Assembly: GCF_011082725.1 (NCBI RefSeq)
Contig: NZ_CP049715.1
Coordinates: 1,674,001 to 1,738,000, forward strand
Length of the DNA: 64,000 nucleotides
Source of the DNA: Apibacter sp. B3706
GTDB lineage: Bacteria; Bacteroidota; Bacteroidia; Flavobacteriales; Weeksellaceae
Direction of reading: 5' to 3'
Both the position numbers and the translations under genes were made by a program. This document shows, piece after piece, positions 33,670 to 49,830 of the stretch. Positions within the stretch are counted from its first letter, which is position 1; each line of letters opens with the position of its first letter. The notes under the pieces are model-generated. The model was not told the origin of the DNA. It worked only from the letters and a program-made list of their open reading frames with translations, and did not search any database.

Positions 33670-34672
33670 TTAAAAAAAACTGTTAGATGAATTTACCTGT
33701 ACTAAGGTAAACAAAGTTATTATATTAGAAAGCCAAAACCATCTACCATAATCAACAGCAATCAAGCATATCAAAAGAATAGCTATATATTGACATGTTA
33801 AAAATAAAAATATATTATTTGATTTTAAACGAAAAATTTTTTTCAAATAAATAAACATGCTAAAAAAATTAAACAAGTATTTAAAAAAAAGCCTAAGAGA
33901 TAAATTGGATGTTTTTTAAAAATAGGAATTTTCCACATAATTACCTCATCTGTTGAATTAAAGACCCAATAAAGCTCTTTAATACTATTCAAATGATCTG
34001 TTCCAAATTTATTCCAACTGTTTATAATTATATTTATATCCCTATTGCTGCCATTAAAACAAATTCCTACTAATAAAAAAACGAAAAAAGAAGGGATTAA
34101 TAATGAAATTTTCTTAATAGATACACTATTTAAATTAGTAATATTGAGACAATAAAGGATTGGAAAAAAAGTAAAAACAAAATAAGCTTCATGTATAAGA
34201 ATCATAAATATGCTCATCAAATTACATATTACAATTTTTAAATTAAAAGATTTTATTTTGTTAGTAACATATAATTGGAAAAGAAAATAAACAATCAATA
34301 AAACATCTAATGTAAAAAACATTTTATATGCAATAACATTAATAAGCATAAAGCTTCCAAATAATATATAAGGCTCTAACATTCTTTTATTATAAAAAAC
34401 ACCAAAAGAATTATAAGTATAATTTCAAAAATAGGTTGAAATTTAAAAGGTTCAATAGGTGTGTTATTAGCTAAAAAAAATAAAATACTCCCGAATAATC
34501 CCCTTATAATAAAACCTGCTTCATAATTTATATAAGCCCCTTTAATAATTAACCATTCATTGGAATAATAACCTATAAACTTTAGTTTAACTTCAATTAA
34601 AATAAAAAAATTTACTAATAAAGAGTTTTCTTTATCATATTCATATTTTACATTAATTATATAAGTGGACAA
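33670..34672 (-). pseudogene. Frame-broken polytopic membrane protein
   Basis: Three consecutive minus-strand frames (34376-34672, 33843-34382, 33670-33876) overlap end to start and all encode hydrophobic membrane segments. The first has AGFIIRGLFGSILF, resembling the 'RRGLLG' start of uncharacterised polytopic proteins, and the last has AVDYGRWFWLSN. The first switch needs a one-base shift at ATAATAAAAGAATG. The second is in a run of T. The simplest reading is one ~330-aa membrane protein with two frameshifts in A/T runs, i.e. a pseudogene, phase-variable gene, or sequencing error. Function unknown. Confidence 0.6.
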
Positions 34673-34938
34673 AAAAATAACTGTAGAAATAATTTATTTG
34701 AAATAAAATACCAAATATATATATTTTATTGTTCATTAAATTTCAGCAATTAATTAAAAATACTATATGATTATTAAATTAATAGTGTTTTGAATAATAG
34801 ATAAAACAATAAGATATGAACTCGTTTTTTATTACAATTTGATAAATTTCAAATCTATAATTTCGCAAACCAAAAAAGTAGCGTCTTAAAAAATTATACA
34901 AATCAATATAAAGTAAAAATATTTTTTATTAAATTTAT
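34673..34938. other. Gap upstream of the leu promoter
   Basis: About 265 nt of AT-rich sequence between the broken membrane-protein gene and the leu promoter. Nothing is recognised. Confidence 0.4.
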
Positions 34939-34969
34939 TTTGGCAATTAAAAAAATTATCATAATTTAG
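34939..34969 (+). promoter_or_regulatory. Promoter of the leu operon
   Basis: TTTG (34939-34942), 19 nt, then TAATTTAG (34962-34969), which matches TAnnTTTG in all but one base. The leader peptide ATG is 26 nt further on. Confidence 0.6.
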
Positions 34970-34994
34970 CGCCCAATTATAATTAATACAAAGA

Positions 34995-35057
34995 ATGTCA
35001 TTGTTTACTAACATAATTAGCATTATTCTGATTCTGGGTCAAGCTCAGGGTGAGTAA
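34995..35057 (+). CDS. Leader peptide of the leu operon
   Basis: A 20-codon open frame starting MSLFTN and continuing IISIILIL, then GQAQGE and TAA. It contains five Ile and three Leu. It sits between the promoter and a strong terminator hairpin, exactly as in ribosome-controlled attenuators. The Ile excess is notable for an operon headed by leuA. The 3' half of the frame forms hairpin arms: CTGGG (35034-35038) can pair with CTCAG (35044-35048). The peptide itself need not have a function. Confidence 0.7.
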   Translation: MSLFTNIISIILILGQAQGE

Positions 35058-35121
35058 TGCTTGTGTTGTAAATTATACAAAATATAAAAAGCCTTTCTCA
35101 CTCTAAGGAGAAAGGCTTTTT
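35047..35121 (+). promoter_or_regulatory. leuA: Transcription attenuator of the leu operon
   Basis: Terminator: AAAAAGCCTTTCTC (35086-35099) and GAGAAAGGCTTTTT (35108-35121), a perfect 14-bp stem ending in T5. Competing antiterminator: AGGGTGAG (35047-35054), at the end of the leader frame, can pair with CTCACTCT (35097-35104), which covers the terminator's 5' arm and loop (8 bp, one G-U). A further pair, CTGGG/CTCAG, would block the antiterminator when the ribosome moves on. So starvation for Ile or Leu should favour read-through into leuA. Confidence 0.7.
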
Positions 35122-35158
35122 AATGTTTTTTAATCACAAAAAGAAAACGATACCAAGG

Positions 35159-36649
35159 ATGGATAAATTATTCATTTTCGACACTACTTTAAGGGATGGA
35201 GAACAGGTCCCGGGGTGTCAATTAAATACAATTGAAAAAATTGAAATTGCTAAAGCATTAGAAGAATTAGGGGTCGATGTTATTGAAGCCGGTTTTCCCA
35301 TTTCGAGTCCGGGAGATTTCACTTCTGTAGAAGCTATTTCCAAAGCTGTAACAAACCCTACCATCTGCGCTCTAACCCGTGCTGTAGAAAGAGATATAGA
35401 AGTAGCTGCCGATGCTCTCAAATATGCCAAGAAAAAAAGAATACATACAGGAATCGGAACTTCTGATTTCCACATAAAATATAAATTTAACTCTACCAGA
35501 GAAGAAATCATAAAAAGAGCAGTTGCCGCAACTGCATATGCAAAAAAATTCGTTGAAGATGTTGAGTTCTATGCTGAAGATGCGGGAAGAACTGACAATG
35601 AATACTTAGCCCAAGTGGTCCAAGCAGTTGTTAATGCAGGAGCAACAGTTATCAATATCCCTGATACCACCGGATACTGTCTACCTACAGAATATGGCGA
35701 AAAAATAAAATACCTAATTGACCATGTAGATATGAAAAATGCCATCTTATCTACTCACTGCCATCAAGATTTAGGAATGGCAACAGCCAACTCACTTATG
35801 GGAGTTATCAATGGCGCCAGACAAGTAGAGGTAACCATTAACGGAATTGGTGAGAGAGCAGGAAATACATCACTTGAAGAAGTTGTTATGGCTATAAAAA
35901 GTCATAAAGAATTATCTATTGACACAAATATTAATACAAAGAAAATATACCCGGTAAGCAAAATGGTTTCCAGCTTAATGAATATGCCTGTTCAACCTAA
36001 TAAGGCAATAGTTGGTAGAAATGCTTTTGCCCATTCTTCCGGAATTCATCAAGACGGAGTATTAAAAAATCTTTCAACTTACGAAATCATTGATCCTAAA
36101 GAAGTTGGAATAGATGACAATGCTATAGTGCTTACCGCCCGAAGTGGTCGTCATGCCCTTAAAAGCAGACTGAACTTACTAGGAATTAAAGTAGAAGCGA
36201 ATGAATTAGCCAATATTTACGAACGATTTTTAGAACTTGCTGATAAAAAGAAAGATATTAATGACGATGATCTTTTAATATTAGTAGGAAAAGAACCTAA
36301 TGAAAGTAACCGTATAAAACTCGATTACTTACAAGTTACTTCCGGAAAAGGAATTAAAAATGCTGCAATTGTTACCCTAAATATAGCCGGCGAAAAATTC
36401 ACTTCGACTTCTTTCGGAAACGGACCTGTAGATGCAGCAATTAACACCGTAAGAGACATTCTTAAAAAACAAATGACTATTCATGAGTTTTTAATTCAGG
36501 CTATTAACAAAGGAAGTGACGACTTAGGAAAAGTTCACATGCAAGTTGAATATAAGGGTAAAAATTATTACGGATTTTCAGCAAATACCGATATTGTGAC
36601 TGCTTCCGTTGAAGCTTATCTTGATGCAATAAATAAATTTACCGTTTAA
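35159..36649 (+). CDS. leuA: 2-isopropylmalate synthase
   Basis: 496 aa from the ATG at 35159 ([19 protein letters not shown]). The ATG at 35123 is in frame but touches the attenuator terminator and adds a non-conserved stretch. It catalyses acetyl-CoA plus 2-ketoisovalerate, the first step of leucine synthesis. The HMGL-like TIM barrel has [23 protein letters not shown] with the metal His residues and [13 protein letters not shown]. The C-terminal allosteric domain for Leu feedback starts about residue 380. First structural gene of leuA-leuC-leuD-leuA-like-leuB. Confidence 0.95.
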
Positions 36650-36686
36650 CACTATATACAAAACCAATTAAAAAAGAGAATATACC

Positions 36687-38081
36687 ATGAAAACACTTTT
36701 TGACAAAATTTGGGATGCTCATACGGTTACGTCTATACAAGATGGGCCCACCCAATTATATATAGATAGGCATTTTTGCCATGAAGTTACCAGTCCCCAA
36801 GCCTTCAACGGACTAAGAGAAAGAGGATTAAAAGTTTTTAGACCCTCTCAAACAACGTTAACTGCCGACCACAATACACCCACTTGTAATCAAGATCAAC
36901 CGGTAAAAGATCCTGTATCAAAAAAACAATTAGATACCCTTTCTAAAAATGCGGAAGAATTTGGCCTTACCCTTTATGCTCTTGGAAATGAGAGAAATGG
37001 AGTGGTTCACATTATTGGTCCTGAAAATGGCTATACCCAACCGGGGATGACCATCGTTTGCGGAGATAGTCACACTTCTACACACGGTGCCTTCGGAGCT
37101 ATTGCATTTGGAATCGGAACCAGTGAGGTTGAAATGGTTTTGGCTACTCAATGTATTCTTCAAAGCAGACCCAAAACAATGAGAATTAATTTTAACGGAG
37201 CCCTAAGTGAAGGAGTAACGGCTAAAGATTTAGCATTATATATGATATCTACCCTTACCACAGGTGGAGCTACCGGTTATTTTGTTGAATATGCAGGAGA
37301 AGCTATTCGAAATCTTAATATGGAACAACGAATGACTCTTTGTAATTTAAGTATTGAAATGGGCGCACGAGGCGGATTAATTGCACCGGATGAAACCACA
37401 TTTGAATATCTTAAAGGTAAAGACTTTGCTCCTAAAGGAGATAAATGGAAGGAAGCAGTTGAATACTGGAAAACGTTGAAAACCGACGAAGGAGCCCAAT
37501 TCGATAAAGAATATACTTTTGACGCTACTAAGATTGAACCTATGGTTACCTACGGTACTAACCCGGGTATGGGAGTATCTATAACCGGATCCATACCTAC
37601 TTTAGACGGATTGGATGAAACCGGTAAAATATCTTTCAAAAAATCATTGGATTACATGGGCTTTAATCCGGGAGAAAAAATGGAAGGAAAACCCATTGAC
37701 TATGTATTTATTGGAAGTTGTACCAACGGAAGAATTGAAGATTTTAGAACCTTTGCAAATTTTGTAAAAGGCAAGAAAAAAGCAGAAAATGTAACCGCTT
37801 GGTTAGTTCCCGGAAGTCATCGTGTAGCTCAACAACTTATCGACGAAGGATTATATAAAATATTAGAAGAAGCAGGATTCGAAATTCGTCAACCCGGTTG
37901 TTCTGCTTGTCTTGCTATGAACGATGATAAAGTTCCGGCCGGAAAATATGCCGTTTCCACCACTAACCGAAACTTTGAAGGAAGACAGGGTCCCGGAGCT
38001 AGAACAATTTTGGCCAGCCCTTTAGTAGCTGCTGCTGCTGCTGTAACAGGAAAAATAACCGATCCTAGAAAACTAAACTAA
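36687..38081 (+). CDS. leuC: 3-isopropylmalate dehydratase large subunit
   Basis: 464 aa aconitase-family enzyme. The [4Fe-4S] cysteines are in IGSCTNGR and [29 protein letters not shown] and [13 protein letters not shown] are further family blocks. With LeuD it isomerises 2- to 3-isopropylmalate, and the same enzyme can hydrate citraconate in the citramalate route. 37 nt after leuA and 17 nt before leuD. Confidence 0.97.
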
Positions 38082-38098
38082 TCCTCTAAAAAAACAAA

Positions 38099-38695
38099 AT
38101 GGAAAAATTTAAAACAATAACATCAACCTATGTTCCACTACCAATTGAAAATGTGGATACAGACCAAATCATACCCGCACGTTTCTTAAAAGCTACTAAT
38201 AAAGAAGGTTTCGGAGATAATTTATTCGCTGATTGGAGATATGATAAAACCGGAAATCCAAAACCGGATTTTGTATTGAATAATCCAACATACAGCGGGA
38301 ACATATTAGTTGCAGGAAAGAATTTCGGAAGCGGTTCCAGTAGAGAACATGCTGCTTGGGCAGTTTCCGGATATGGCTTCCGTGCAGTGGTTTCCAGCTA
38401 TTTTGCTGATATTTTTAAAAATAATTCCCTTAACAACGGATTACTTCCGGTAGTAGTAAGTCCTGAATTTTTATCGGATCTTTTCGAAAATGTACATTCA
38501 GATCCTAACAATACTATTACTATTGATCTGGAAAAGCAAACAATCACCAATAATAAAACGGGAAAAACGGAAATTTTTGACATTAACTCTTATAAAAAAG
38601 AGTGCCTTCTTCAAGGGCTTGATGATATAGATTACTTATTATCTAAAAAAGATAAAATTGAAGAATATGAAAAAAACCGTGTTTTTCAATACTAA
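38099..38695 (+). CDS. leuD: 3-isopropylmalate dehydratase small subunit
   Basis: 198 aa, the normal size. Blocks include PLPIENVDTDQIIPARFLK, then GKNFGSGSSREHAAWAVSGYGFRAVVSSYFADIF, the swivel-domain substrate loop. Forms the heterodimer with LeuC encoded immediately upstream. The next gene follows at 82 nt. Confidence 0.97.
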   Translation: MEKFKTITSTYVPLPIENVDTDQIIPARFLKATNKEGFGDNLFADWRYDKTGNPKPDFVLNNPTYSGNILVAGKNFGSGSSREHAAWAVSGYGFRAVVSSYFADIFKNNSLNNGLLPVVVSPEFLSDLFENVHSDPNNTITIDLEKQTITNNKTGKTEIFDINSYKKECLLQGLDDIDYLLSKKDKIEEYEKNRVFQY

Positions 38696-38776
38696 ATTAG
38701 ATACGATTTTATCATCTCATTTTTCTAAGTAAAGGTCCCATTGGGTCTATCACGTATCATTAATAAAAACAACAGT

Positions 38777-40288
38777 ATGATAGAAATTATGGATACCACT
38801 CTCCGTGATGGAGAGCAAACTTCCGGTGTTTCATTTTCCATGCAAGAAAAACTAAGCGTTGCCCGTCTACTCATAGATATGGGATTAAATAGATTGGAAA
38901 TTGCTTCTGCTAAAGTTTCTGAAGGAGAATTTTTAACTGTTCAAAAAATAGCCTCTTGGGCAGAGAACGCCGGACACTTAGATAAGTTAGAAATATTAGG
39001 ATTTGTTGACAAAGGGGTGTCCTTAGATTGGATAAAAAGAACCGGGTGTAAAACAATCAATTTATTAACCAAAGGGTCTCTTAAACATGTAACAGAACAA
39101 TTACGCAAAACACCCGAACAACATGTAAAAGATATTAAGCATGATATTTCACTTGCAGAATCCATGGGGATTTCGGTGAATATATATTTGGAAGATTGGT
39201 CTAATGGTATGATTCATTCAAAAGACTATGTTTTTTTTATGATTAATCAACTGAAAGACCTTCCTATCCAACGTTTTATGCTTCCTGATACTTTAGGAAT
39301 TCTTAACCCCCTTAACACAAAACTTTTTTGTACGGAAATAGTTCATCGTTACCCGAATATTCACTTTGATTTTCATGCGCACAATGATTACGATTTGGCT
39401 GTTGCCAATGTAATGGCCGCAGTAGATTCCGGAATTCAAGGAATTCATGTTACCATGAACGGATTAGGAGAAAGAGCCGGAAACGCTCCATTACCGAGTG
39501 TAATTGCTGTTCTCCATGATCAAATGAAGATAAAAACTTCCGTAAAAGAATACATGTTAAATAAAGTAAGTCGTGTAGTAGAAACCTACTCAGGACTAAA
39601 TATTTCATCCAATCAACCGGTAATCGGAGAAAATGTTTTTACCCAAACAGCCGGAATACATGCCGATGGTGACAATAAAAACAATTTGTATTACAATGAT
39701 TTGCATCCGGATCGATTCGGTAGAGTTCGAGAATATGCCCTGGGTAAATTATCCGGAAAAGCTAATATTAAAAAAAATATTGAAGCTTTAGGAATCGAAT
39801 TGGATGAAAAAGATATGGTTAAAGTAACCAACCGAGTTATTGAATTAGGAGACAGAAAAGAAATTATTACACAAGAAGACCTCCCATTCATCATTTCGGA
39901 TGTTTTAAATACTAATGAAAATGAAAAGAAAGTAAAAATACTTTCTTATGCTTTAGTTTTAAGTAAAGGTTTGCATCCAACAGCATCCATTCGTATGGAA
40001 ATTGACGGAAAAATGTATGAACAAACAGCTTCAGGTGATGGACAATATGATGCATTCTCTGAAGCTATCAGTCTCATTTATGAAAAATTGAACAAGGCTA
40101 AACCTATCCTTACTAACTATAAAGTAATTATTCCACCCGGGGGACAAACGGATGCGCTTGTACAAACGGTTATATCTTGGAAGTTAAATGATTACGAATT
40201 TAAAACCAGAGGACTGGATGCTGACCAAACAGAAGCTGCTATAAAAGCGACTGAAAAAATGCTGAATATAATTGAAAACCTTCATTAA
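38777..40288 (+). CDS. Second LeuA-like synthase (candidate citramalate synthase)
   Basis: 503 aa from the ATG at 38777 ([17 protein letters not shown]); an in-frame TTG lies 36 nt upstream. The HMGL-like barrel keeps [25 protein letters not shown] with the metal His residues and GLGERAGNAPLPS. A LeuA-type regulatory domain occupies the C terminus (ASIRMEIDGKMYEQTASGDGQ...GGQTDALVQT). It is clearly divergent from the leuA 3.6 kb upstream. Candidates are a second isopropylmalate synthase, citramalate synthase, or a homocitrate-type synthase. The Ile-rich leader of this operon and the missing ilvA favour citramalate synthase, an inference only. Confidence 0.8.
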   Translation: MIEIMDTTLRDGEQTSGVSFSMQEKLSVARLLIDMGLNRLEIASAKVSEGEFLTVQKIASWAENAGHLDKLEILGFVDKGVSLDWIKRTGCKTINLLTKGSLKHVTEQLRKTPEQHVKDIKHDISLAESMGISVNIYLEDWSNGMIHSKDYVFFMINQLKDLPIQRFMLPDTLGILNPLNTKLFCTEIVHRYPNIHFDFHAHNDYDLAVANVMAAVDSGIQGIHVTMNGLGERAGNAPLPSVIAVLHDQMKIKTSVKEYMLNKVSRVVETYSGLNISSNQPVIGENVFTQTAGIHADGDNKNNLYYNDLHPDRFGRVREYALGKLSGKANIKKNIEALGIELDEKDMVKVTNRVIELGDRKEIITQEDLPFIISDVLNTNENEKKVKILSYALVLSKGLHPTASIRMEIDGKMYEQTASGDGQYDAFSEAISLIYEKLNKAKPILTNYKVIIPPGGQTDALVQTVISWKLNDYEFKTRGLDADQTEAAIKATEKMLNIIENLH

Positions 40289-40498
40289 AATTGGTAATTA
40301 TTTGAGGAAATTAGGTTTTCAACTTATTTAATTTAAAAAATTTTAATCGTTTATATAATTTTGATGCGGAAATTATTTCCAAACTAAAATGTATTAACGC
40401 TTTAAATTTAGGTATGATGAAAATTTTTTAAACCTAAACCGGTATAAGGTTTAAAAATGCATAACAAATAAAGAATATAAATATAAAGAATATATAAA
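40289..40498. other. Gap before leuB with an 11-bp hairpin
   Basis: TTTTTAAACCT (40425-40435) and AGGTTTAAAAA (40447-40457) form a perfect 11-bp stem with an 11-nt loop, without a T-run on the plus strand. It may be a processing or stability element inside the leu transcript, or a terminator read on the minus strand. No coding frame is visible. Confidence 0.4.
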
Positions 40499-41569
40499 AT
40501 GAAATTAAATATAGCCGTATTACCCGGAGACGGGATAGGCCCTGAAATCATAGCTCAAGCCTTAGAAGTAACTAAAGCTATATGCGCAAAATTTAATCAT
40601 GAGCTTACTTATAAAGAAGCCTTAGTTGGAGCAATAGCTATAGACAAAACCGGAAATCCATACCCTCAGGAAACCCATGATTTATGTATGGATTCTGATG
40701 CCGTCTTATTTGGAGCTATCGGAGATCCTAAATATGACAACAATCCATCTGCTAAAGTTCGTCCGGAACAAGGTCTATTAAAAATGAGAAAAGAGCTTGG
40801 GTTATACGCAAACCTTCGTCCGATAAATACCTTTCCATCCTTACTACATAAATCTCCGCTTCGTCCTGATCTTGTGGATGGTGCAGATTTTATGTGCGTA
40901 AGAGAATTAACCGGAGGTTTATATTTTGGTCGTCCTCAAGGAAGAAGTGAAGATGGTAATACCGCTTACGACACTTGTGTATATACCAGAGAAGAAATTG
41001 AAAGAATTGTTAGGTTAGCTTATAAACTAGCAGGACAAAGAAATAAAAAACTGACTATAGTTGATAAAGCAAATGTACTTTGCTCTTCTCGTTTATGGAG
41101 ACAGGTATCTCAAGAAATAGAAAAAGAATTTCCAGATATCGAAACTGAATATATGTTTGTAGATAATGCTGCGATGCAGATTATTCAATGGCCTAAGCGT
41201 TTTGATGTTTTAGTTACAGAAAATCTTTTCGGAGATATCCTTACCGATGAAGCTTCCGTTATAACCGGATCTTTAGGAATGTTACCTTCTGCCTCAATCG
41301 GTATTCATACTTCCGTTTTTGAACCTATACATGGTTCCTACCCGCAAGCTGCCGGAAAAAATATAGCAAATCCACTAGCTACCATACTTTCTGCGGCATT
41401 AATGTTTGAATATGCTTTTGATTTAAAAGAAGAAGGAGCACTAATCAGAAAAGCGGTGGATGCTTCAATGGAACAAAAAATAGTTACCGAGGATATCGCA
41501 TTCGATGGTAAAGCTTATTCAACTTCTGAAGTTGGTAATTGGATTGTAGAATATATTAAAAATTCATAG
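40499..41569 (+). CDS. leuB: 3-isopropylmalate dehydrogenase
   Basis: 356 aa. Beta-decarboxylating dehydrogenase that makes 2-ketoisocaproate from 3-isopropylmalate with NAD+; the same reaction on methylmalate serves the citramalate pathway. Visible motifs are [46 protein letters not shown] and the catalytic/metal region [25 protein letters not shown]. Last gene of the leu operon, followed by a terminator. Confidence 0.97.
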
Positions 41570-41576
41570 TTTAGTT

Positions 41577-41612
41577 AATAAAAGGGCTTTCATATAATGA
41601 GGTCCTTTTATT
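41577..41612 (+). terminator. Terminator of the leu operon
   Basis: AATAAAAGG (41577-41585) and CCTTTTATT (41604-41612) pair perfectly, 7 nt after the leuB stop, followed by a T-rich tail. Confidence 0.7.
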
Positions 41613-41920
41613 TCTTATTTGATTTATAAAACTTTAAAATCTAATTATAAGCAAAAGAAATTCTACTTTAAAGAATAACTGGCTTTTTCAATTAATAAAT
41701 TACCTGTTTAAATTGCTAATTAGATAAATAAAATTATTTAGGTTACTTGTTTTTTAATTAATTATTATAAAAAGATTCATAAATTTCAGAGTATATCCAA
41801 AATACAAAAAAAATCACCATTGAATAAATCAATACAATATAAATAGCAAACTTTAATTTATATTTTTAACATTAAATTATAATTTAATTTCATCAAATAT
41901 TATTTTATTTACAAATAATA
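41613..41920. other. Gap between leu and ilv operons
   Basis: About 300 nt of AT-rich spacer between the leuB terminator and the ilv promoter. No gene or structure is recognised. Confidence 0.4.
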
Positions 41921-41952
41921 TTTGGACATAACAAAAAACAATCTTAATTTTG
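41921..41952 (+). promoter_or_regulatory. Promoter of the ilv operon
   Basis: TTTG (41921-41924), 20 nt, then TAATTTTG (41945-41952), both exact to the Bacteroidota consensus. The leader peptide ATG follows 32 nt later. Confidence 0.75.
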
Positions 41953-41984
41953 TCCCATTATTATAAAATTTATACTTAAAACCA

Positions 41985-42041
41985 ATGTATCAACATAACT
42001 ACATACTATTACTTCTTCTCGTTCTGGTCAATATATATTAA
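41985..42041 (+). CDS. Leader peptide of the ilv operon
   Basis: An 18-codon frame beginning MYQHNY and continuing ILLLLLVLV, then NIY and TAA. Nine of the consecutive residues 7-15 are Ile, Leu or Val, with Leu codons CTA, TTA, CTT, CTT, CTC and CTG. Such a run immediately before a terminator is the hallmark of an attenuation leader that senses charged tRNA-Leu/Val/Ile. It lies downstream of a perfect promoter. Confidence 0.75.
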   Translation: MYQHNYILLLLLVLVNIY

Positions 42042-42122
42042 TCAGAGAAAGGGATATACGTAAAATCAATTGTAGTTATTAAAAATATTCATAAGCCCTT
42101 TCTCTTATTAAGGAAAGGGCTT
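42016..42122 (+). promoter_or_regulatory. ilvD: Transcription attenuator of the ilv operon
   Basis: Terminator: AAGCCCTTTCT (42093-42103) and GGAAAGGGCTT (42112-42122), 11 bp including a G-U pair, then a T/A-rich tail. Antiterminator: GAGAAAGGG (42045-42053), just after the leader stop, is perfectly complementary to CCCTTTCTC (42096-42104) in the terminator's 5' arm. TTCTC (42016-42020), in the leader's Leu codons, can instead pair with GAGAA (42045-42049). Ribosome stalling on the Leu/Val codons would free GAGAAAGGG to prevent termination. Confidence 0.75.
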
Positions 42123-42154
42123 AAATTTTATAAAAAATAAAATAAACTAAAAAA

Positions 42155-43984
42155 ATGAAATACCAGTTAAGAAGTCACACCAGTACACATGGTCGAAGAA
42201 TGGCTGGAGCCCGAGCTCTATGGAGAGCTAACGGTATGCGCGAGGAACAAATGGGGAAGCCTTTAATCGCAATTGTAAATTCTTTTACCCAATTTGTACC
42301 CGGACACGTGCACTTGCATCAAATAGGTCAATTTGTAAAATCAGAAATAGAAGCTTTAGGTTGTTTTGCTGCCGAATTCAATACCATTGCCATAGACGAC
42401 GGAATAGCCATGGGACACGATGGAATGTTATATTCTCTTCCTTCCAGAGACTTAATTGCCGATAGTGTTGAATATATGGTAAATGCGCATAAAGCAGATG
42501 CCATGATTTGCATAAGTAACTGTGATAAAATTACTCCGGGTATGCTTATGGCCTCCATGCGCCTCAACATACCGACTATATTTGTTTCGGGCGGTCCTAT
42601 GGAAGCCGGTGAATTAAATAATCAACATTTAGATTTAATCGATGCTATGATTAAATCTGCAGACTTAACGGTTTCAGATAAAGAGGTGAATGCCATTGAA
42701 CGATCTGCCTGTCCAACTTGCGGATCATGTTCCGGCATGTTTACGGCAAATTCCATGAATTGTTTAAACGAAGCAATTGGATTAGCACTTCCCGGAAATG
42801 GAACTATAGTAGCTACTCATGCTAACAGAAAAAAATTATTTAAGGATGCAGCTGCCCTAATTGTTAAAAACGCTTATAAATATTATCAAGAGGGAGACGA
42901 ATCGGTTTTACCTAGAAATATTGCAACTAAACAAGCTTTTTTAAATTCAATGGCGCTAGATATAGCAATGGGTGGTTCAACAAACACTATTCTTCATTTA
43001 TTAGCTATCGCCAATGAAGCTGAAGTAGATTTCACTATGGATGATATTGATGCATTATCAAGAAAAACACCATGTCTTTGTAAAGTTGCTCCTAATACAA
43101 CTAAATATCATATACAAGATGTAAATAGAGCGGGAGGAATTATGGGTATTTTAGGAGAATTGGCTAAAGCTGATTTAATAGATACATCTACCCACCGTAT
43201 CGATGGTTATACTTTAAAAGAAGCAATAGATGTATACGATATTACTAAATCAAACCCTACTAAAGAAGCATTAGATTTATACCAATCGGCACCGGGTAAT
43301 AAATTTAATTTAGTAATGGGATCGCAAAATTCAACCTATTCTACATTGGATACCGATCGTTCCGAAGGATGTATTCGAGATTGGAATCATGCCTATACTA
43401 AAGATGGTGGTTTAGCTATATTAAAAGGAAACATAGCTCTAAACGGTTGTGTAGTTAAAACAGCAGGTGTGGACGAAAGTATATTTAAGTTTACAGGAAC
43501 TGCCAAAGTATTTCAATCTCAAGATGCCGCTTGTGAGGGGATTTTATCGGGAAAAGTTCAATCAGGTGATGTAGTAATTATTACTTATGAAGGACCTAAA
43601 GGGGGACCCGGCATGCAAGAAATGCTCTATCCTACTTCATACATAAAATCTAAGCACTTAGGAAAAGAATGCGCCTTAATTACAGATGGTAGATTTTCTG
43701 GAGGAACTTCCGGTTTATCTATAGGGCACGTTTCGCCCGAAGCTGCAGCAGGAGGAGCCATTGGTTTGGTTGAAGACGGAGATATCATAGAAATCGATAT
43801 TCCTAATCGAACCATTAATGTTAAAATATCCGATGAAGAATTGAAATTCCGAAGAGAACAAGAAATTTCCAAAGGATCAAATGCATTTAAACCGCAAAGA
43901 GATCGAAAAATTTCGAAAGCTTTAAAGGCTTATGCCAGTATGGTTAGCTCTGCTGATTTAGGAGCTGTAAGAATAATAAAATAA
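42155..43984 (+). CDS. ilvD: Dihydroxy-acid dehydratase
   Basis: 609 aa, the long E. coli-like form. It dehydrates dihydroxyisovalerate and dihydroxymethylvalerate in Val/Ile synthesis. Fe-S ligand cysteines lie in [10 protein letters not shown] and in [17 protein letters not shown]. Another family block is GGRFSGGT-like [22 protein letters not shown], with [11 protein letters not shown]. First structural gene of ilvD-ilvB-methyltransferase-ilvN-ilvC; the attenuator terminator is 33 nt upstream. Confidence 0.97.
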
Positions 43985-44012
43985 ATGACTAAACAATAAG
44001 AGAATAAAGACT

Positions 44013-45719
44013 ATGAATACTAATATTTCAGGAAGTGAGGCTTTAATACAATCCTTGCTTAAAGAAGGGGTAGATACCATATTCGGATATCCGGGAGGCG
44101 CTATTATGCCGGTATTCGATGCTTTATACGATTATAAAGATAAAATCAATCATATTCTTGTACGTCATGAACAGGCTGCGGCTCATGCTGCACAAGGCTA
44201 TGCCCGTGCTAAAGGCAAACCCGGAATCGTTTTGGTAACTTCCGGTCCGGGTGCCACTAACACTGTAACCGGGATAGCAGATGCCATGATTGACAGTACT
44301 CCCCTGGTAGTAATTTCGGGACAAGTATTTTCCGGTTTACTGGGAAGTGATGCTTTTCAAGAAGCTGATGTAGTAGGAATAACTAAGCCGATCAGCAAAT
44401 GGACGTATCAGATACGAAATGCAGAAGATATTCCCTGGGCTGTAGCCAGAGCTTTTTATATAGCCAGTAATGGTCGTAAAGGTCCGGTAGTTTTAGATAT
44501 AACCAAAGATGCTTTGCAAGGACAAATCGAATATGCCCCTGCAAAAATCAATTTTATAAGAAGTTATCAACCCATTCCGGATTTAAAACCGGAAGAAATC
44601 CGTGAAGCTGCCAAACTTATCAATGAAGCTAAAAAACCGTTGGCATTAATCGGTCAAGGAGTTATCTTAAGCGGAGCGGAAGAAGAACTTAAAAAGTTTT
44701 TGGAAAAAGCTGATATTCCCGCCGCATCCACGATGTTAGGTTTATCGGCCATTCCTACTGACCACCCTTTAAATGTGGGACTTTTAGGTATGCATGGTAA
44801 TGTTGCCCCAAATGTGAAAACTAATGAATGTGATGTTTTAATAGCTATAGGTATGCGATTTGATGATCGGGTAACCGGTGATTTAAAAACGTATGCTAAA
44901 CAGGCAAAAATTATTCATTTTGATATTGATCCTTCTGAAATTGATAAAAACGTAAAAACTCATGTAAAAGTTTTAGGTGATGCTAAAGCAACTTTAGCTG
45001 AGGTAACCCAATTAGTAAACGAAAATAAACACACCGAATGGTTAGACAGTTTTAAAGAATATTACGAAAAAGAATACGATGCTGTAATTGAAAAAGAATT
45101 GTATCCTGAATCCGGAAGCTTAAAAATGGGAGAAGTCGTAAGAAAAGTATCGGAAGCTACCCATCATGAAGGTATTTTAGTTACCGATGTTGGACAAAAC
45201 CAAATGATGGGCGTTCGGTATTTTAAATATAAACAAAGCCGAAGTGTTATTACTTCCGGAGGACTTGGTACTATGGGATTTGGTTTACCGGCTGCCATTG
45301 GTGCAAAAATTGGTGCTCCTGATCGAACCGTTTGTTTATTTGTGGGCGATGGCGGAATTCAAATGACGATTCAAGAATTGGGAACGATCATGCAATATGA
45401 CATTGATGTAAAAATTATCATATTAAACAACCATTTTCTAGGTATGGTGCGTCAATGGCAAGAATTGTTTTTTGACAAAAGATATTCTGAAACTCTTATG
45501 AAAAATCCAAATTTTGAAGCTATTGCTAAGGCCTACAATATTAAATCTAAAACCATAAGCAAAAGAGAAGAGTTGGATCAGGCAATTGAAGAAATGATTA
45601 ATCATAAGGGATCTTACTTATTAGATGTTCAGGTTGAAATTCAGGGTATGGTATATCCGATGATTCCGGCCGGTTCGTGTGTTACTAACATTTTATTAGG
45701 AGAAACTAACCAAATATAA
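44013..45719 (+). CDS. ilvB: Acetolactate synthase large subunit
   Basis: 568 aa ThDP enzyme that condenses pyruvate with pyruvate or 2-ketobutyrate. The catalytic Glu is in LVRHEQAAAHAAQGYARA. The FAD-type middle domain follows, and the ThDP motif GDGGIQMTIQELGTIMQ runs to NN in the C-terminal third. The regulatory subunit gene ilvN is not immediately next: a methyltransferase gene separates them, with gaps of 9 and 8 nt. Confidence 0.97.
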   Translation: MNTNISGSEALIQSLLKEGVDTIFGYPGGAIMPVFDALYDYKDKINHILVRHEQAAAHAAQGYARAKGKPGIVLVTSGPGATNTVTGIADAMIDSTPLVVISGQVFSGLLGSDAFQEADVVGITKPISKWTYQIRNAEDIPWAVARAFYIASNGRKGPVVLDITKDALQGQIEYAPAKINFIRSYQPIPDLKPEEIREAAKLINEAKKPLALIGQGVILSGAEEELKKFLEKADIPAASTMLGLSAIPTDHPLNVGLLGMHGNVAPNVKTNECDVLIAIGMRFDDRVTGDLKTYAKQAKIIHFDIDPSEIDKNVKTHVKVLGDAKATLAEVTQLVNENKHTEWLDSFKEYYEKEYDAVIEKELYPESGSLKMGEVVRKVSEATHHEGILVTDVGQNQMMGVRYFKYKQSRSVITSGGLGTMGFGLPAAIGAKIGAPDRTVCLFVGDGGIQMTIQELGTIMQYDIDVKIIILNNHFLGMVRQWQELFFDKRYSETLMKNPNFEAIAKAYNIKSKTISKREELDQAIEEMINHKGSYLLDVQVEIQGMVYPMIPAGSCVTNILLGETNQI

Positions 45720-45728
45720 ATCTATGTT

Positions 45729-46400
45729 ATGGAAACTATTGAAACTCAATTTAACTCTGTCGCCCAACAATACGATAAACAGCGAAGAAAATTAATTCCC
45801 TGTTTTCAAGATTTTTATAAAATAGCGGTTGAAAATATAAACCTTTCATCATCTTCTCCTAAAATTTTAGATTTAGGGGCCGGTACCGGATTATTATCCG
45901 AATTTGTTCTTCAAAAATATCCAAATGCTCAAATTACTTTGGTTGATCTGTCAGAAAAAATGTTAGAAGTTGCTAAAAATAGGTTTGAAACTAATACCTC
46001 TATCCATATTATTCGACAAGATTTTACCACATATACATCGACACAACCATTTGATGCCGTTGTGTCCTCATTGGCTATTCATCACTTGGAAGACTCGGAT
46101 AAAATTAAACTATATAATTCCATTTTTTCTTATCTTAAAGAGGAGGGCACATTTATAAATGCAGAGCAAGTTAGCGGTGAAGATGATTATTTTTCAAAAT
46201 TTTATGATACCCGTTGGAGATATCAAATTGAAAACAGCGGACTTACCGCTGATGAAATTAAGGCTTCATATGAAAGAATTAAATTAGACAAAAGAAGTCC
46301 CATACTTGCCCAATTAAAATGGCTGAAAGATGCGGGTTTTAAACATGTTGATTGTCTTTATAAATATTATGACTTTGCTGTTTTATATGCTAAAAAGTAG
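45729..46400 (+). CDS. Class I SAM-dependent methyltransferase inside the ilv operon
   Basis: 223 aa. The SAM-binding motif I is ILDLGAGTGLLSEFVL (about residues 44-59), followed by ITLVDLSEKMLEVAK (motif II) and FDAVVSSLAIHHLEDSDK (motif IV region), as in UbiE/TAM-like enzymes. The N terminus NSVAQQYDKQRRKLIP is a typical cap helix. The substrate is unknown. It is inserted between the two acetolactate synthase subunit genes with spacings of only 9 and 8 nt, so it is co-transcribed and under the Leu/Val attenuator. It may be a passenger or a modifier of a pathway intermediate or carrier; nothing in the sequence decides this. Confidence 0.88.
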   Translation: METIETQFNSVAQQYDKQRRKLIPCFQDFYKIAVENINLSSSSPKILDLGAGTGLLSEFVLQKYPNAQITLVDLSEKMLEVAKNRFETNTSIHIIRQDFTTYTSTQPFDAVVSSLAIHHLEDSDKIKLYNSIFSYLKEEGTFINAEQVSGEDDYFSKFYDTRWRYQIENSGLTADEIKASYERIKLDKRSPILAQLKWLKDAGFKHVDCLYKYYDFAVLYAKK

Positions 46401-46408
46401 AAATAATC

Positions 46409-46963
46409 ATGAAAAACAAAACGTTATATACTGTAACTATATTTTCTGAAAACACTGTAGGACTTTTAGGTCAAGTAACCAGTGTTTTTACCAGAAGATT
46501 TTTAAATATTGAAACTTTATCGGTATCGCCGTCAGCTATTGAAGGCATACATAAATTTACCATTACGGTACTTTGTGATAAAGAAATGATTGAAAAAGTA
46601 GTAAAACAAATCGACAAATGCGTGGATGTGTTGAAATCTTACTATAATACCGACGATGAATTAATTCATCAGGAAATTGCTTTGTATAAATTACCCACTC
46701 CTGAATTTTTAAAAATTGGTTCGGTGGAAAATTTAATTAGAAAATATAATGCTCAGATACTTGAAATTAACGAGATTTGTGTTGTCATTCAAAAAACAGG
46801 GCATTACACCGATACGCAAGCTTTGTTTCAAGAATTGAGTGAAAATATTAAAGTATTGCAATTTATTCGTTCTGGAAGAATAGCTGTAAATACTTCAAAA
46901 ATAGAACGCTTAAGTGATATGTTAAGTGAATTAAAAATAAAAGAATCTTTAATAAAAAATTAA
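46409..46963 (+). CDS. ilvN: Acetolactate synthase small subunit
   Basis: 184 aa. The N-terminal ACT domain (about 1-78: YTVTIFSENTVGLLGQVTSVFTRRFLNIETLSVSPS) mediates valine feedback. The C-terminal domain (about 90-175) activates the large subunit. 8 nt after the methyltransferase gene and 13 nt before ilvC. Confidence 0.94.
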   Translation: MKNKTLYTVTIFSENTVGLLGQVTSVFTRRFLNIETLSVSPSAIEGIHKFTITVLCDKEMIEKVVKQIDKCVDVLKSYYNTDDELIHQEIALYKLPTPEFLKIGSVENLIRKYNAQILEINEICVVIQKTGHYTDTQALFQELSENIKVLQFIRSGRIAVNTSKIERLSDMLSELKIKESLIKN

Positions 46964-46976
46964 AAATACTAACAAG

Positions 46977-48023
46977 ATGGCACAAATGAATTTTGGTGGA
47001 GTAATTGAAAATGTAATTACTCGTGATGAGTTTCCTTTAGAAAAAGCTAGGGAAACATTAAAAGATGAAACCATTGCTGTTATTGGATATGGAGTACAAG
47101 GTCCCGGACAAGCATTAAATTTAAGAGATAACGGCTTCAATGTAATCGTTGGACAACGTAAAGGAGGTAAAACCTGGGATAAGGCTATTGCAGACGGTTG
47201 GGTTCCGGGTGAAACTTTATTTGATATAGAAGAAGCAGCATCAAAAGGAACTATTATTCAATATTTATTGTCAGATGCCGCACAAATTGAGGTTTGGCCT
47301 AAATTAAAACCTCATTTAACTGCCGGTAAAGCTTTATATTTTTCTCATGGTTTCGGTATTACTTTTAATGACCGTACCGGAATTATACCTCCTAAAGATA
47401 TTGATGTAATTTTAGTTGCCCCTAAAGGATCAGGAACCAGCCTTAGACGTATGTTCTTGGAAGGAAGAGGGTTAAACTCCAGTTATGCAATTTTCCAGGA
47501 TGCAACCGGTAAAGCTAAAGACAGAACTATCGCTTTAGGTATTGGTGTTGGCTCAGGGTATTTATTTGAAACTGACTTTAAACGTGAAGTTTATTCTGAT
47601 CTAACAGGAGAAAGAGGTACTTTAATGGGTGCTATTCAAGGAATTTTATTAGCTCAATATGAAGTGTTACGTGAAAACGGACATACTCCATCTGAAGCTT
47701 TCAATGAAACAGTAGAAGAACTTACACAATCTTTAATGCCTCTTTTTGCTGAAAAAGGTATGGACTGGATGTATGCAAACTGTTCTACTACTGCGCAAAG
47801 AGGTGCATTAGATTGGATGACTCCTTTTCATGATGCCACTAAACCTGTATTTGCTAAGTTATATGCAGAAGTAGCTTCAGGAAATGAAGCACAAAGATCA
47901 ATCGACACCAACTCTAAGCCTGACTATCGCGAAAAATTAGAAGAAGAACTTAAGGCTCTTCGTGAAAGCGAAATGTGGAAGGCCGGAGCTGTTGTTAGAG
48001 AATTACGACCGGAAAATAATTAA
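46977..48023 (+). CDS. ilvC: Ketol-acid reductoisomerase
   Basis: 348 aa. Rossmann motif GYGVQGPGQALNLRDNG (about 37-53), with VGQRKGGKTW setting cofactor preference. The knotted helical domain holds the Mg ligands (YSDLTGERGTLMGAIQG, with Asp and Glu) and NCSTTAQRGALDWM. It converts acetolactate and acetohydroxybutyrate. Last gene of the ilv operon; no ilvA follows, unlike many Flavobacteriales ilv operons. Confidence 0.96.
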   Translation: MAQMNFGGVIENVITRDEFPLEKARETLKDETIAVIGYGVQGPGQALNLRDNGFNVIVGQRKGGKTWDKAIADGWVPGETLFDIEEAASKGTIIQYLLSDAAQIEVWPKLKPHLTAGKALYFSHGFGITFNDRTGIIPPKDIDVILVAPKGSGTSLRRMFLEGRGLNSSYAIFQDATGKAKDRTIALGIGVGSGYLFETDFKREVYSDLTGERGTLMGAIQGILLAQYEVLRENGHTPSEAFNETVEELTQSLMPLFAEKGMDWMYANCSTTAQRGALDWMTPFHDATKPVFAKLYAEVASGNEAQRSIDTNSKPDYREKLEEELKALRESEMWKAGAVVRELRPENN

Positions 48024-48035
48024 TTAGTATTATAT

Positions 48036-48072
48036 AAAAAAAGGAATATGCAAAATACATATTCCTTTTTTT
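48036..48072 (+). terminator. Terminator of the ilv operon
   Basis: AAAAAAAGGAATATG (48036-48050) and CATATTCCTTTTTTT (48058-48072): perfect 15-bp stem, 7-nt loop, T7 end, 12 nt after the ilvC stop. Confidence 0.9.
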
Positions 48073-48099
48073 ATATTTACAAATTAAAATTACATTTAA

Positions 48100-49830
48100 A
48101 TGTTTATAATTACTAAAAAATCTACTCTTCTAAATTCATCCGCATTAATTTTTCTTTTACTATCTCCCCTTTTCATAACATTATTTTTATCAAATCTATT
48201 ATTTATATGTAAAATCAGCCTCTCCGGATTTACAATACTTTTTTCGTTTATATTATCTTATTTAGTTCTTTTTTTCTTAACAAGAAAAACTCATTGGTAC
48301 GAATGGATTTTAACTCTTTTATTTTACCTTATATCATATTCACTTAGTATATTTTTCTATGATCTATCTTCCGATGGTCAATGGTATCATTTAGAAAGTA
48401 TTATAAATCTAAAGAATGGATGGAATCCAATCTATGAAATATCAAAAACTAATGTTGCACAAATATATGTTCAATCCTATCCAAAAGGATATGAAATTAT
48501 AGCCGCTTCTATTTACTCTTTTACTCAAAAAGTAGAATCAGGAAAGCTTATCAATATAATTGTTCTGATAGCTTCTCTAATATATGTTTTTAAATTGCTT
48601 AAACAAACTCAGTTAAGCAAGTTGAAGAGATATCTATATACGTTTCTTATCTGTATAAATCCAATAGTAGTTACTGAACTATTTACCCATTATTTAGACG
48701 GTTTCATGTATTCTTGCTTAATCATACTAATTTGTTCTTTTAGTTGCCTATTGAAAAGATATAACAAAATTGATTTAACGACTTTTATATTTACATTATC
48801 AATTTTCTCATCATTGAAATTTACTTCTATTTTATTAGTTTTTATATTTGTATTATTTTCTTTTATATACTTATGGAAAAATCATAAATTTAAATTTAAG
48901 TACCTATTTCCATTTTTAATATCCGGAATAATCATCTTTCCAATAACCAATATAAATCCCTATTTCACCAATTTAAAAAATAATCATCACGTTTTTCATC
49001 CCGCATTTGGTAAAGAAAAAATAGAAAACTTACTATCCTCTCATGTAAATTATGATTTTTACAAAAAAAACAGAATTGAAAAAGCCTTTATATCATATTT
49101 TTCTTATACCGGTGGCAGCAAAAAAACAACAAATTTAAAAATACCTTTTTCATTAAAACTATCCGAAATTAAAGTTCTTAGTGATGTAACCATTACTTAT
49201 GGGGGATTTGGACCTTTCTTTGGAGGAATTGTTATTCTATCGACCCTTCTTTTCATTATTTCTTTTTTTATTCCTTCTAAAGCTCCTTCAGGATTGTACT
49301 ACTTAATTTTAGGGGTTATTGCAAGTATTTTATCATTTCCAGATTTTTGGTTTGCAAGAATGGTTCCGCAACTTTATTTATGCCCTGTTTTAATTCTTTT
49401 ACTAATGGAATATAAATCAATAAATTCTAAATATCTAAAATTCGGAACTCTTATAACTCTATTATTTATTAGCATTAATACGTTAATGTTCATCATAATT
49501 TCGCTTACCTTAAATTTTTATCTTAGTTTAAATACCCATTATCAGATTTCTCAAATGAAAAAGCTTGGGAAAAAATCCCCTATTCTTATCGATTATTTTT
49601 TTAAATCAAACGTAACTAGATTGGAAGAAAATGACATTACTTATAAAGTGACCGAGATTCCTTATTCAGAAGATGATAAAAATCTTCAATTCTTTGGTGC
49701 TAAAGGAAAAAATACGACCCGATTTATAGCTGAATTTAATGAAAAAGATAAAAGTAATTTATTACGATATTTAGATAATCAATATAATAAGATTTTCAAT
49801 TACTATCAATCTTATAAAAAAATTAAGTGA
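48100..49830 (+). CDS. Polytopic membrane protein, GT-C-like
   Basis: 576 aa with about eleven membrane segments and a C-terminal soluble tail (from about 490). After the second or third helix the loop FYDLSSDGQWYHLESIINLKNGWNPIYE carries acidic/aromatic residues in the position where GT-C glycosyltransferases and related membrane enzymes have their catalytic Asp. TNVAQIYVQSYPKGYEI follows. I recognise no specific family. It has no operon partner: the ilv terminator lies before it and gltX has its own promoter. A lipid-linked sugar transferase is the best guess, with low certainty. Confidence 0.7.
   Translation: MFIITKKSTLLNSSALIFLLLSPLFITLFLSNLLFICKISLSGFTILFSFILSYLVLFFLTRKTHWYEWILTLLFYLISYSLSIFFYDLSSDGQWYHLESIINLKNGWNPIYEISKTNVAQIYVQSYPKGYEIIAASIYSFTQKVESGKLINIIVLIASLIYVFKLLKQTQLSKLKRYLYTFLICINPIVVTELFTHYLDGFMYSCLIILICSFSCLLKRYNKIDLTTFIFTLSIFSSLKFTSILLVFIFVLFSFIYLWKNHKFKFKYLFPFLISGIIIFPITNINPYFTNLKNNHHVFHPAFGKEKIENLLSSHVNYDFYKKNRIEKAFISYFSYTGGSKKTTNLKIPFSLKLSEIKVLSDVTITYGGFGPFFGGIVILSTLLFIISFFIPSKAPSGLYYLILGVIASILSFPDFWFARMVPQLYLCPVLILLLMEYKSINSKYLKFGTLITLLFISINTLMFIIISLTLNFYLSLNTHYQISQMKKLGKKSPILIDYFFKSNVTRLEENDITYKVTEIPYSEDDKNLQFFGAKGKNTTRFIAEFNEKDKSNLLRYLDNQYNKIFNYYQSYKKIK

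Follow-up and report, generated by a model that had tools for sequence, protein, structure and literature searches.

A probable ribosome-mediated attenuator upstream of the ilvDBNC operon of Apibacter sp. B3706 and its companion before the leu operon

In enterobacteria, the ilvL, ivbL, leuL, trpL and hisL leaders comprise a leader ORF that carries codons for the products of the operon, segments that can pair as 1:2, 2:3 or 3:4 and an intrinsic terminator located before the first gene. The region upstream of ilvD in Apibacter sp. B3706 resembles these attenuators, as it includes a leader ORF with product codons, a putative 1:2 pairing, the 2:3 and 3:4 pairings and a terminator, but it differs from them by its phylum, by its promoter and by the lack of any match to an Rfam leader family. 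Compared with the enterobacterial leaders, the control run before ilvD is a mixture of Leu, Val and Ile codons, while a companion leader found before the leu operon reads Ile and Leu. According to the accessible part of PMC1183508, leu, ilvGMEDA and ilvBN are among the attenuated operons.

Leader-peptide attenuation, a textbook process in enteric bacteria, is thinly documented in Bacteroidota. The abstract of Vitreschak 2004 is said to list Bacteroidetes/Chlorobi among the groups with candidate attenuators, and the general idea is probably theirs. In Flavobacterium psychrophilum, which belongs to the same phylum as B3706, clues to leader-peptide attenuation were reported upstream of amino acid biosynthesis operons, which the available sections do not name (PMC9723704), and excerpts of PMC7366714 describe sORFs in long 5' UTRs of B. 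thetaiotaomicron. The Bacteroid-trp motif (RF01692) figures in a table of PMC2864571 as a candidate cis-regulatory RNA of Bacteroidetes. It concerns another operon than ilv and has no gathering-score match in six Bacteroidales loci or in the window, i.e. the whole stretch of 64,000 nucleotides analysed here. Judging from its name, it is probably a trp leader. The ilvD motif WRC-18-2 precedes ilvD and some of its representatives carry a potential terminator; in the accessible part of PMC8632094 it is a weak riboswitch candidate reported only from Veillonella, for which no leader peptide is mentioned, whereas the B3706 leader has one. No description of this ilv/leu pair was found in the literature searched, subscription papers that possibly cover it being outside its scope.

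Layout of the ilv leader and proposed mechanism

The window (G000:C1:1674001-1738000; 31% GC) belongs to a 2.30-Mb genome consisting of a single contig. Its plus strand carries, in this order, leuA, leuC, leuD, a CimA-like gene, leuB, ilvD, ilvB, a methyltransferase-like gene, ilvN/H and ilvC. A terminator-like hairpin (41577-41612) lies immediately 3' of leuB, which suggests that the leu and ilv genes form separate transcription units. The methyltransferase-like gene (45729-46400), located between ilvB and ilvN/H, has no match in loci L001-L089; the sequences of the genus loci stop inside ilvB. The longest leuA ORF begins at the end of the leu terminator (35123-35159), and the likely start of the gene is ATG 35159, which is kept across the genus.

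Table 1. Features of the ilv leader, of the operon behind it and of the companion leu leader (window coordinates)
Feature	Position	Strand	Remarks
Companion leu leader	34995..35122	+	ORF 34995-35057 MSLFTNIISIILILGQAQGE; terminator 35085-35122
-33 promoter element TTTG	41921..41924	+	Read directly; aligned in 9/9 congeners
-7 promoter element TAATTTTG (TAnnTTTG)	41945..41952	+	Read directly; TAnnTTTG in 9/9 congeners
Leader peptide ORF MYQHNYILLLLLVLVNIY	41985..42041	+	18 codons; stop TAA 42039-42041; open in 9/9 congeners
Segment 1 ATAACTACA, within first leader codons	41995..42003	+	Folds; pairs with TGTAGTTAT 3' of segment 2; helix p 0.03 here
Control codons ILLLLLVLV, nine consecutive Ile/Leu/Val	42003..42029	+	1 Ile, 6 Leu, 2 Val; final pair CTG GTC
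Segment 2 AGAGAAAGGG, 5' arm of antiterminator	42044..42053	+	Pairing scan and folds
Segment 2 extension TGTAGTTAT, partner of segment 1	42071..42079	+	Folds and helix test
Segment 3	42092..42105	+	Antiterminator 3' arm 42096-42105; terminator 5' arm 42092-42103
Segment 4, terminator 3' arm, then weak U-tract AATTTTAT	42112..42123	+	Hairpin scan and folds
ilvD, dihydroxy-acid dehydratase, first gene of the controlled operon	42155..43984	+	NCBIfam NF009103, 1082 bits, over cut-off; ATG 42155
Remaining operon genes: ilvB, methyltransferase-like gene, ilvN/H, ilvC	44013..48023	+	ORF/profile matches

An earlier note on this DNA had announced an exact promoter and a leader with nine consecutive Ile/Leu/Val residues, and both are borne out at the positions given in Table 1. 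The two promoter elements are separated by 20 nt, and TAATTTTG is an exact match to TAnnTTTG, the flavobacterial promoter consensus according to excerpts of PMC9723704. The promoter-like boxes of the leu leader (34939-34969) are TTTG and TAATTTAG, the latter one base off TAnnTTTG, whereas the ilv box is exact. The ilv leader ORF has 16-20 codons in the nine congeners, and its stop codon ends 2 nt upstream of segment 2 in B3706 (1-3 nt in all nine). The antiterminator (42044-42053 with 42096-42105), which shares segment 3 with the terminator, is present as the note had claimed, with 10 bp instead of 9; likewise, the 11 announced pairs of the terminator stem (42092-42103/42112-42123) are all Watson-Crick, and one G-U pair brings them to 12. 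The U-tract of this terminator is weak, and the T-runs of loci L004-L009 are longer.

On the basis of these elements, of their conservation, of the mutually exclusive pairings and of the way in which the control codons of leu and ilv leaders differ, we view the region as a classical ribosome-mediated attenuator controlling transcription of ilvDBNC (probability of about 0.9); from this reading we infer that the leader is translated, that the polymerase pauses, that transcription terminates and that the system responds to starvation. The ilv genes would very probably be switched on only when Ile, Leu or Val run short, and the following model can be proposed. Transcription would start near 41958. 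Segment 1, which lies among the first leader codons, would pair with the extension of segment 2, the control codons being enclosed in this hairpin. When charged Ile-, Leu- or Val-tRNA is scarce, the ribosome would stall in ILLLLLVLV and open the 1:2 hairpin; segment 2, thus left free, would pair with segment 3 to form the antiterminator, leading to read-through into ilvD. When the charged tRNAs are plentiful, the ribosome reaching the stop codon would cover segment 2, and segments 3 and 4 would form the terminator.

Since a short ORF precedes ilvD and regulatory upstream ORFs are a known phenomenon, the leader ORF could instead act on translation, by re-initiation or by occlusion of the ilvD start, the hairpin being incidental. 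This appears improbable, as the leader stop is 113 nt and the end of the terminator hairpin 31 nt upstream of the ilvD ATG, and as what is conserved is a terminator together with an antiterminator that can form in its place.

Departure from chance, pairing and conservation

The attenuator reading was confronted with chance by a leader call that applies joint thresholds to the hairpin, the antiterminator and the I/L/V run. When it was run on 2000 dinucleotide-shuffled versions of the 400-nt upstream region, only two passed, and the hairpin score of B3706, its antiterminator score or its 9 I/L/V in 10 residues were each reached by none of them. Among the 51 ORFs of at least 100 aa in the window, ilvD alone passes the call; leuA was probably missed because its first ATG is located where the leu terminator ends. 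The whole leader folds at -35.9 kcal/mol (z -4.73), a value equalled by 0/200 shuffles; folded alone, the terminator reaches -16.9 kcal/mol (z -4.16), the antiterminator -13.0 kcal/mol (z -2.76) and the stretch from the leader codons to the segment 2 extension -17.8 kcal/mol (z -2.67). The inner hairpin 42016-42080 taken alone is not stabler than chance (z -0.45, 61 of 200 shuffles being as low). Terminator-like hairpins are individually not rare in 34300-48100 (13 observed versus 9.3, sd 3.1, in shuffles): the unusual thing is the combination of elements, not a terminator-like hairpin as such.

Only 9 of 197 sampled genomes of the family carry an ilvD of the B3706 type; all nine belong to the genus of B3706, and this type was not found in the 32 other sampled genera. 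Comparison of the ilvD upstream regions, which the earlier note had suggested as a check, retrieved the leader with every element in all nine genomes. The promoter block is kept in the genus alignment, and towards its end the leader ORF contains CTG GTC in seven genomes and TTG GTC in two.

Outside the genus, the named ilvD loci examined (from Bacteroidales and relatives) were the best 80 of a larger number; 78 of them, with at least 150 nt upstream, were scanned, L036 and L089 having less and being left out of the counts. The leader call passes in 51/78 and fails in 27, the former number being a lower bound for the presence of a leader because L020, L082 and L087 display a leader and yet fail. 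By comparison, it passes for only 2 of 1170 other ORFs, leuA of L059 and a mis-started ilvD in L087, both of which are real leu or ilv leaders. Among relatives of the order, the call passes in 3/3 loci with the long IlvD type (L099-L101) and in 0/5 with the type of about 562 aa (L103-L107, L107 being scanned on only 203 nt upstream); L102 and L108, two pieces of one gene, were left out of this count. In several Bacteroidales the leader ORF reads through segment 2 and stops 23-25 nt further on, so that the leader geometry is not uniform.

Terminator/antiterminator pairs are also the output of metabolite-binding riboswitches, T-boxes and protein-binding leaders, any of which could control the terminator. 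This explanation is very unlikely, as the conserved feature is a peptide whose codons are those for the operon's own products; moreover, at gathering score, Rfam models matched only two tRNAs in the window and nothing in the six Bacteroidales loci, and none came near its cut-off at the ilv leader, where the best weak match, on the minus strand, scores 25.6 bits for a cut-off of 50.

The gene leuB is found in the flank of 7/27 failing and 1/51 passing named ilvD loci (flank lengths vary), a skew hinting that an ilvD placed behind leu genes can do without the leader. The seven failing loci are L015, L016, L041, L049, L063, L071 and L076, in which ilvD has possibly been joined to the end of the leu operon and lacks its own leader. 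The weakest alternative, a constitutive terminator of leuB read-through accompanied by a chance hydrophobic ORF, draws on leuB being upstream on the same strand and is most improbable, given that leuB is followed by its own terminator-like hairpin, that a conserved promoter lies between this hairpin and the ilv leader, and that ORF, antiterminator and terminator recur together before ilvD in distant species, where leuB flanks 1/51 passing loci. All three alternatives (translational upstream ORF, riboswitch or T-box, chance terminator) were thus rejected on the evidence given for each.

The attenuator reading is further supported by changes in segment 3. Pairs were counted in register by a script, a MAFFT alignment being unsuitable as segment 2 is shifted between rows. 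At core positions 2-5, the changes seen across the 60 passing ilv leaders leave the pairings with segment 2 and with segment 4 both intact in 8/10 cells (loci L006, L058, L061, L066 and L074); variants at positions 6 and 7, where many bases lie in the terminator loop, keep both in only 5/26 each, and paired fractions as such are biased because leaders were chosen partly for pairing. Together with the presence of all elements in 9/9 congeners and 51/78 loci, these changes uphold the original proposal of an attenuator upstream of ilvD. In the leu leaders, 2:3 pairing is found in 32-33 of 34 at positions 3-7 versus 6-19 of 34 at positions -1 to 2; of segment 3, only the half next to the loop takes part in the leu-leader antiterminator.

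The helix between segment 1 and TGTAGTTAT was assessed by swapping partners among leaders. For the 60 ilv leaders, own partners score 15.51 versus 13.78 for swapped ones, and 0/5000 permutations are as high, nor is any when the genus is excluded (51 leaders, 0/5000); for the 34 leu leaders, 1/5000 is as high, and 4/5000 without the genus. Taken singly, few helices have p<=0.05: 9 among the 60 ilv leaders and 3 among the 34 leu leaders. We read the helix as a putative counterpart of the 1:2 hairpin known from classical attenuators, enclosing the control codons.

Control codons of the ilv and leu leaders and pathway layout

Leaders precede leuA in all nine genomes of the genus; eight pass the joint call and L096 falls 0.5 below the antiterminator threshold. 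Outside the genus, 24 of 29 leuA loci pass (30 of the 80 named loci were given, L044 being dropped; the 29 come from 28 of the 29 genomes searched). The leu and ilv leaders had been described as unrelated in sequence, which holds only in part, as both contain the terminator core CCTTTCTC...GAAAGG. Exact matches to this core occur at three places in the B3706 genome, two of which are the leu and ilv leaders, and the backward control pattern gives one per strand. The third copy (G000:C1:31863, L138) was rejected as a further leader: it is a short hairpin without such a leader.

For the comparison of codons, leu leaders with at least 6 I/L/V in 10 residues were retained (9 from the genus and 25 others, i.e. 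34), a selection that made no use of Val; loci L115, L128, L130 and L132 have no such leader. Val is present in the control window of 60/60 ilv leaders versus 1/34 leu leaders (L112), rows being related and therefore not independent events. Ile and Leu both occur in 34/34 leu control windows, while those of the ilv leaders contain Leu in 60/60 and Ile in 53/60. Anywhere in the leu leader peptide, Val is found in 11/34, mostly 3' of the control run. These counts support the view that Leu, and in nearly all cases Ile, would be read by both leaders, with Val as an addition in the ilv leader, and thus the earlier suggestion that the two operons may sense different branched-chain amino acids.

The near-absence of Val from leu control runs and its presence in those of ilv fit the pathway layout, as judged from gene content. 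The CimA-like gene of the leu operon (38741-40288), which is present in 9/9 genus genomes, scores highest against a citramalate synthase model of the Leptospira type; the 651 bits obtained fall short of the model's cut-off of 950, and no other synthase model gives more than 338.5 bits. The threonine dehydratase model TIGR01127, the one model used, has no match over its cut-off in the nine genus genomes, a cut-off passed by only 5 of 14 control genomes; below it, G071 has two strong matches (310 and 289 bits) and the other eight have none above 76 bits. The CimA-like gene, together with the weak TIGR01127 matches in 8/9 genomes, indicates that both Leu and Ile probably depend on the leu operon. 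The ilv operon probably serves Leu, Ile and Val.

Across the 41 ORFs of the window, GTC represents 5.4% of Val codons and CTG 4.6% of Leu codons. In the ilv leaders of the genus, GTC makes up 12 of 17 Val codons and CTG 8 of 43 Leu codons; in its leu leaders, CTG accounts for 15 of 28 Leu codons. Control-codon bias is discussed in PMC1183508, whose available part warns that rarity alone is not the rule and would be an oversimplification. The GTC and CTG codons may have been kept for sensitive decoding, for RNA pairing or, alternatively, as codon habits of the donor.

Probable origin of the operon and its significance

The IlvD of the genus groups with those of Dysgonomonas and relatives inside the Bacteroidales rows (tree support 100/98); with the relatives of the order added, the same grouping has a support of 93/96 and is not among the starred branches. 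Identity to Dysgonomonas mossii amounts to 86% for IlvD, 77% for IlvB, 77% for IlvN and 92% for IlvC. In a contrast based on gltX, nine genomes of other genera of the family score 57-65% and four of the Dysgonomonas group (L010, L011, L013 and L014) 55-57%. Considering the IlvD tree, this contrast and the failure to find this ilvD type in the 32 other genera, horizontal transfer is the simplest reading: the ilv operon probably came from Dysgonomonas-like Bacteroidales before the genus diversified. Loci L010-L014 of the donor group all pass the leader call and share the same plan, and the leader probably arrived together with the operon, although it may have been gained independently of this transfer.

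A broader proposal, on which our confidence is evenly balanced, is that a conserved pair of Bacteroidota attenuators splits the branched-chain signals according to pathway layout, the leu leader responding to Ile and Leu, both of which would be made by an operon with a CimA-like enzyme, and the ilv leader to all three. The two switches and their operons would have passed from one order to another as a single functional package, and the GTC and CTG control codons, rare in the low-GC host, would have been kept after transfer and may add sensitivity. An ilv/leu pair with such a clean difference in control codons offers a simple test of whether the tuning of an attenuator follows exactly what its operon produces, in a case where an operon seems to have moved between orders along with its cis-acting RNA control.
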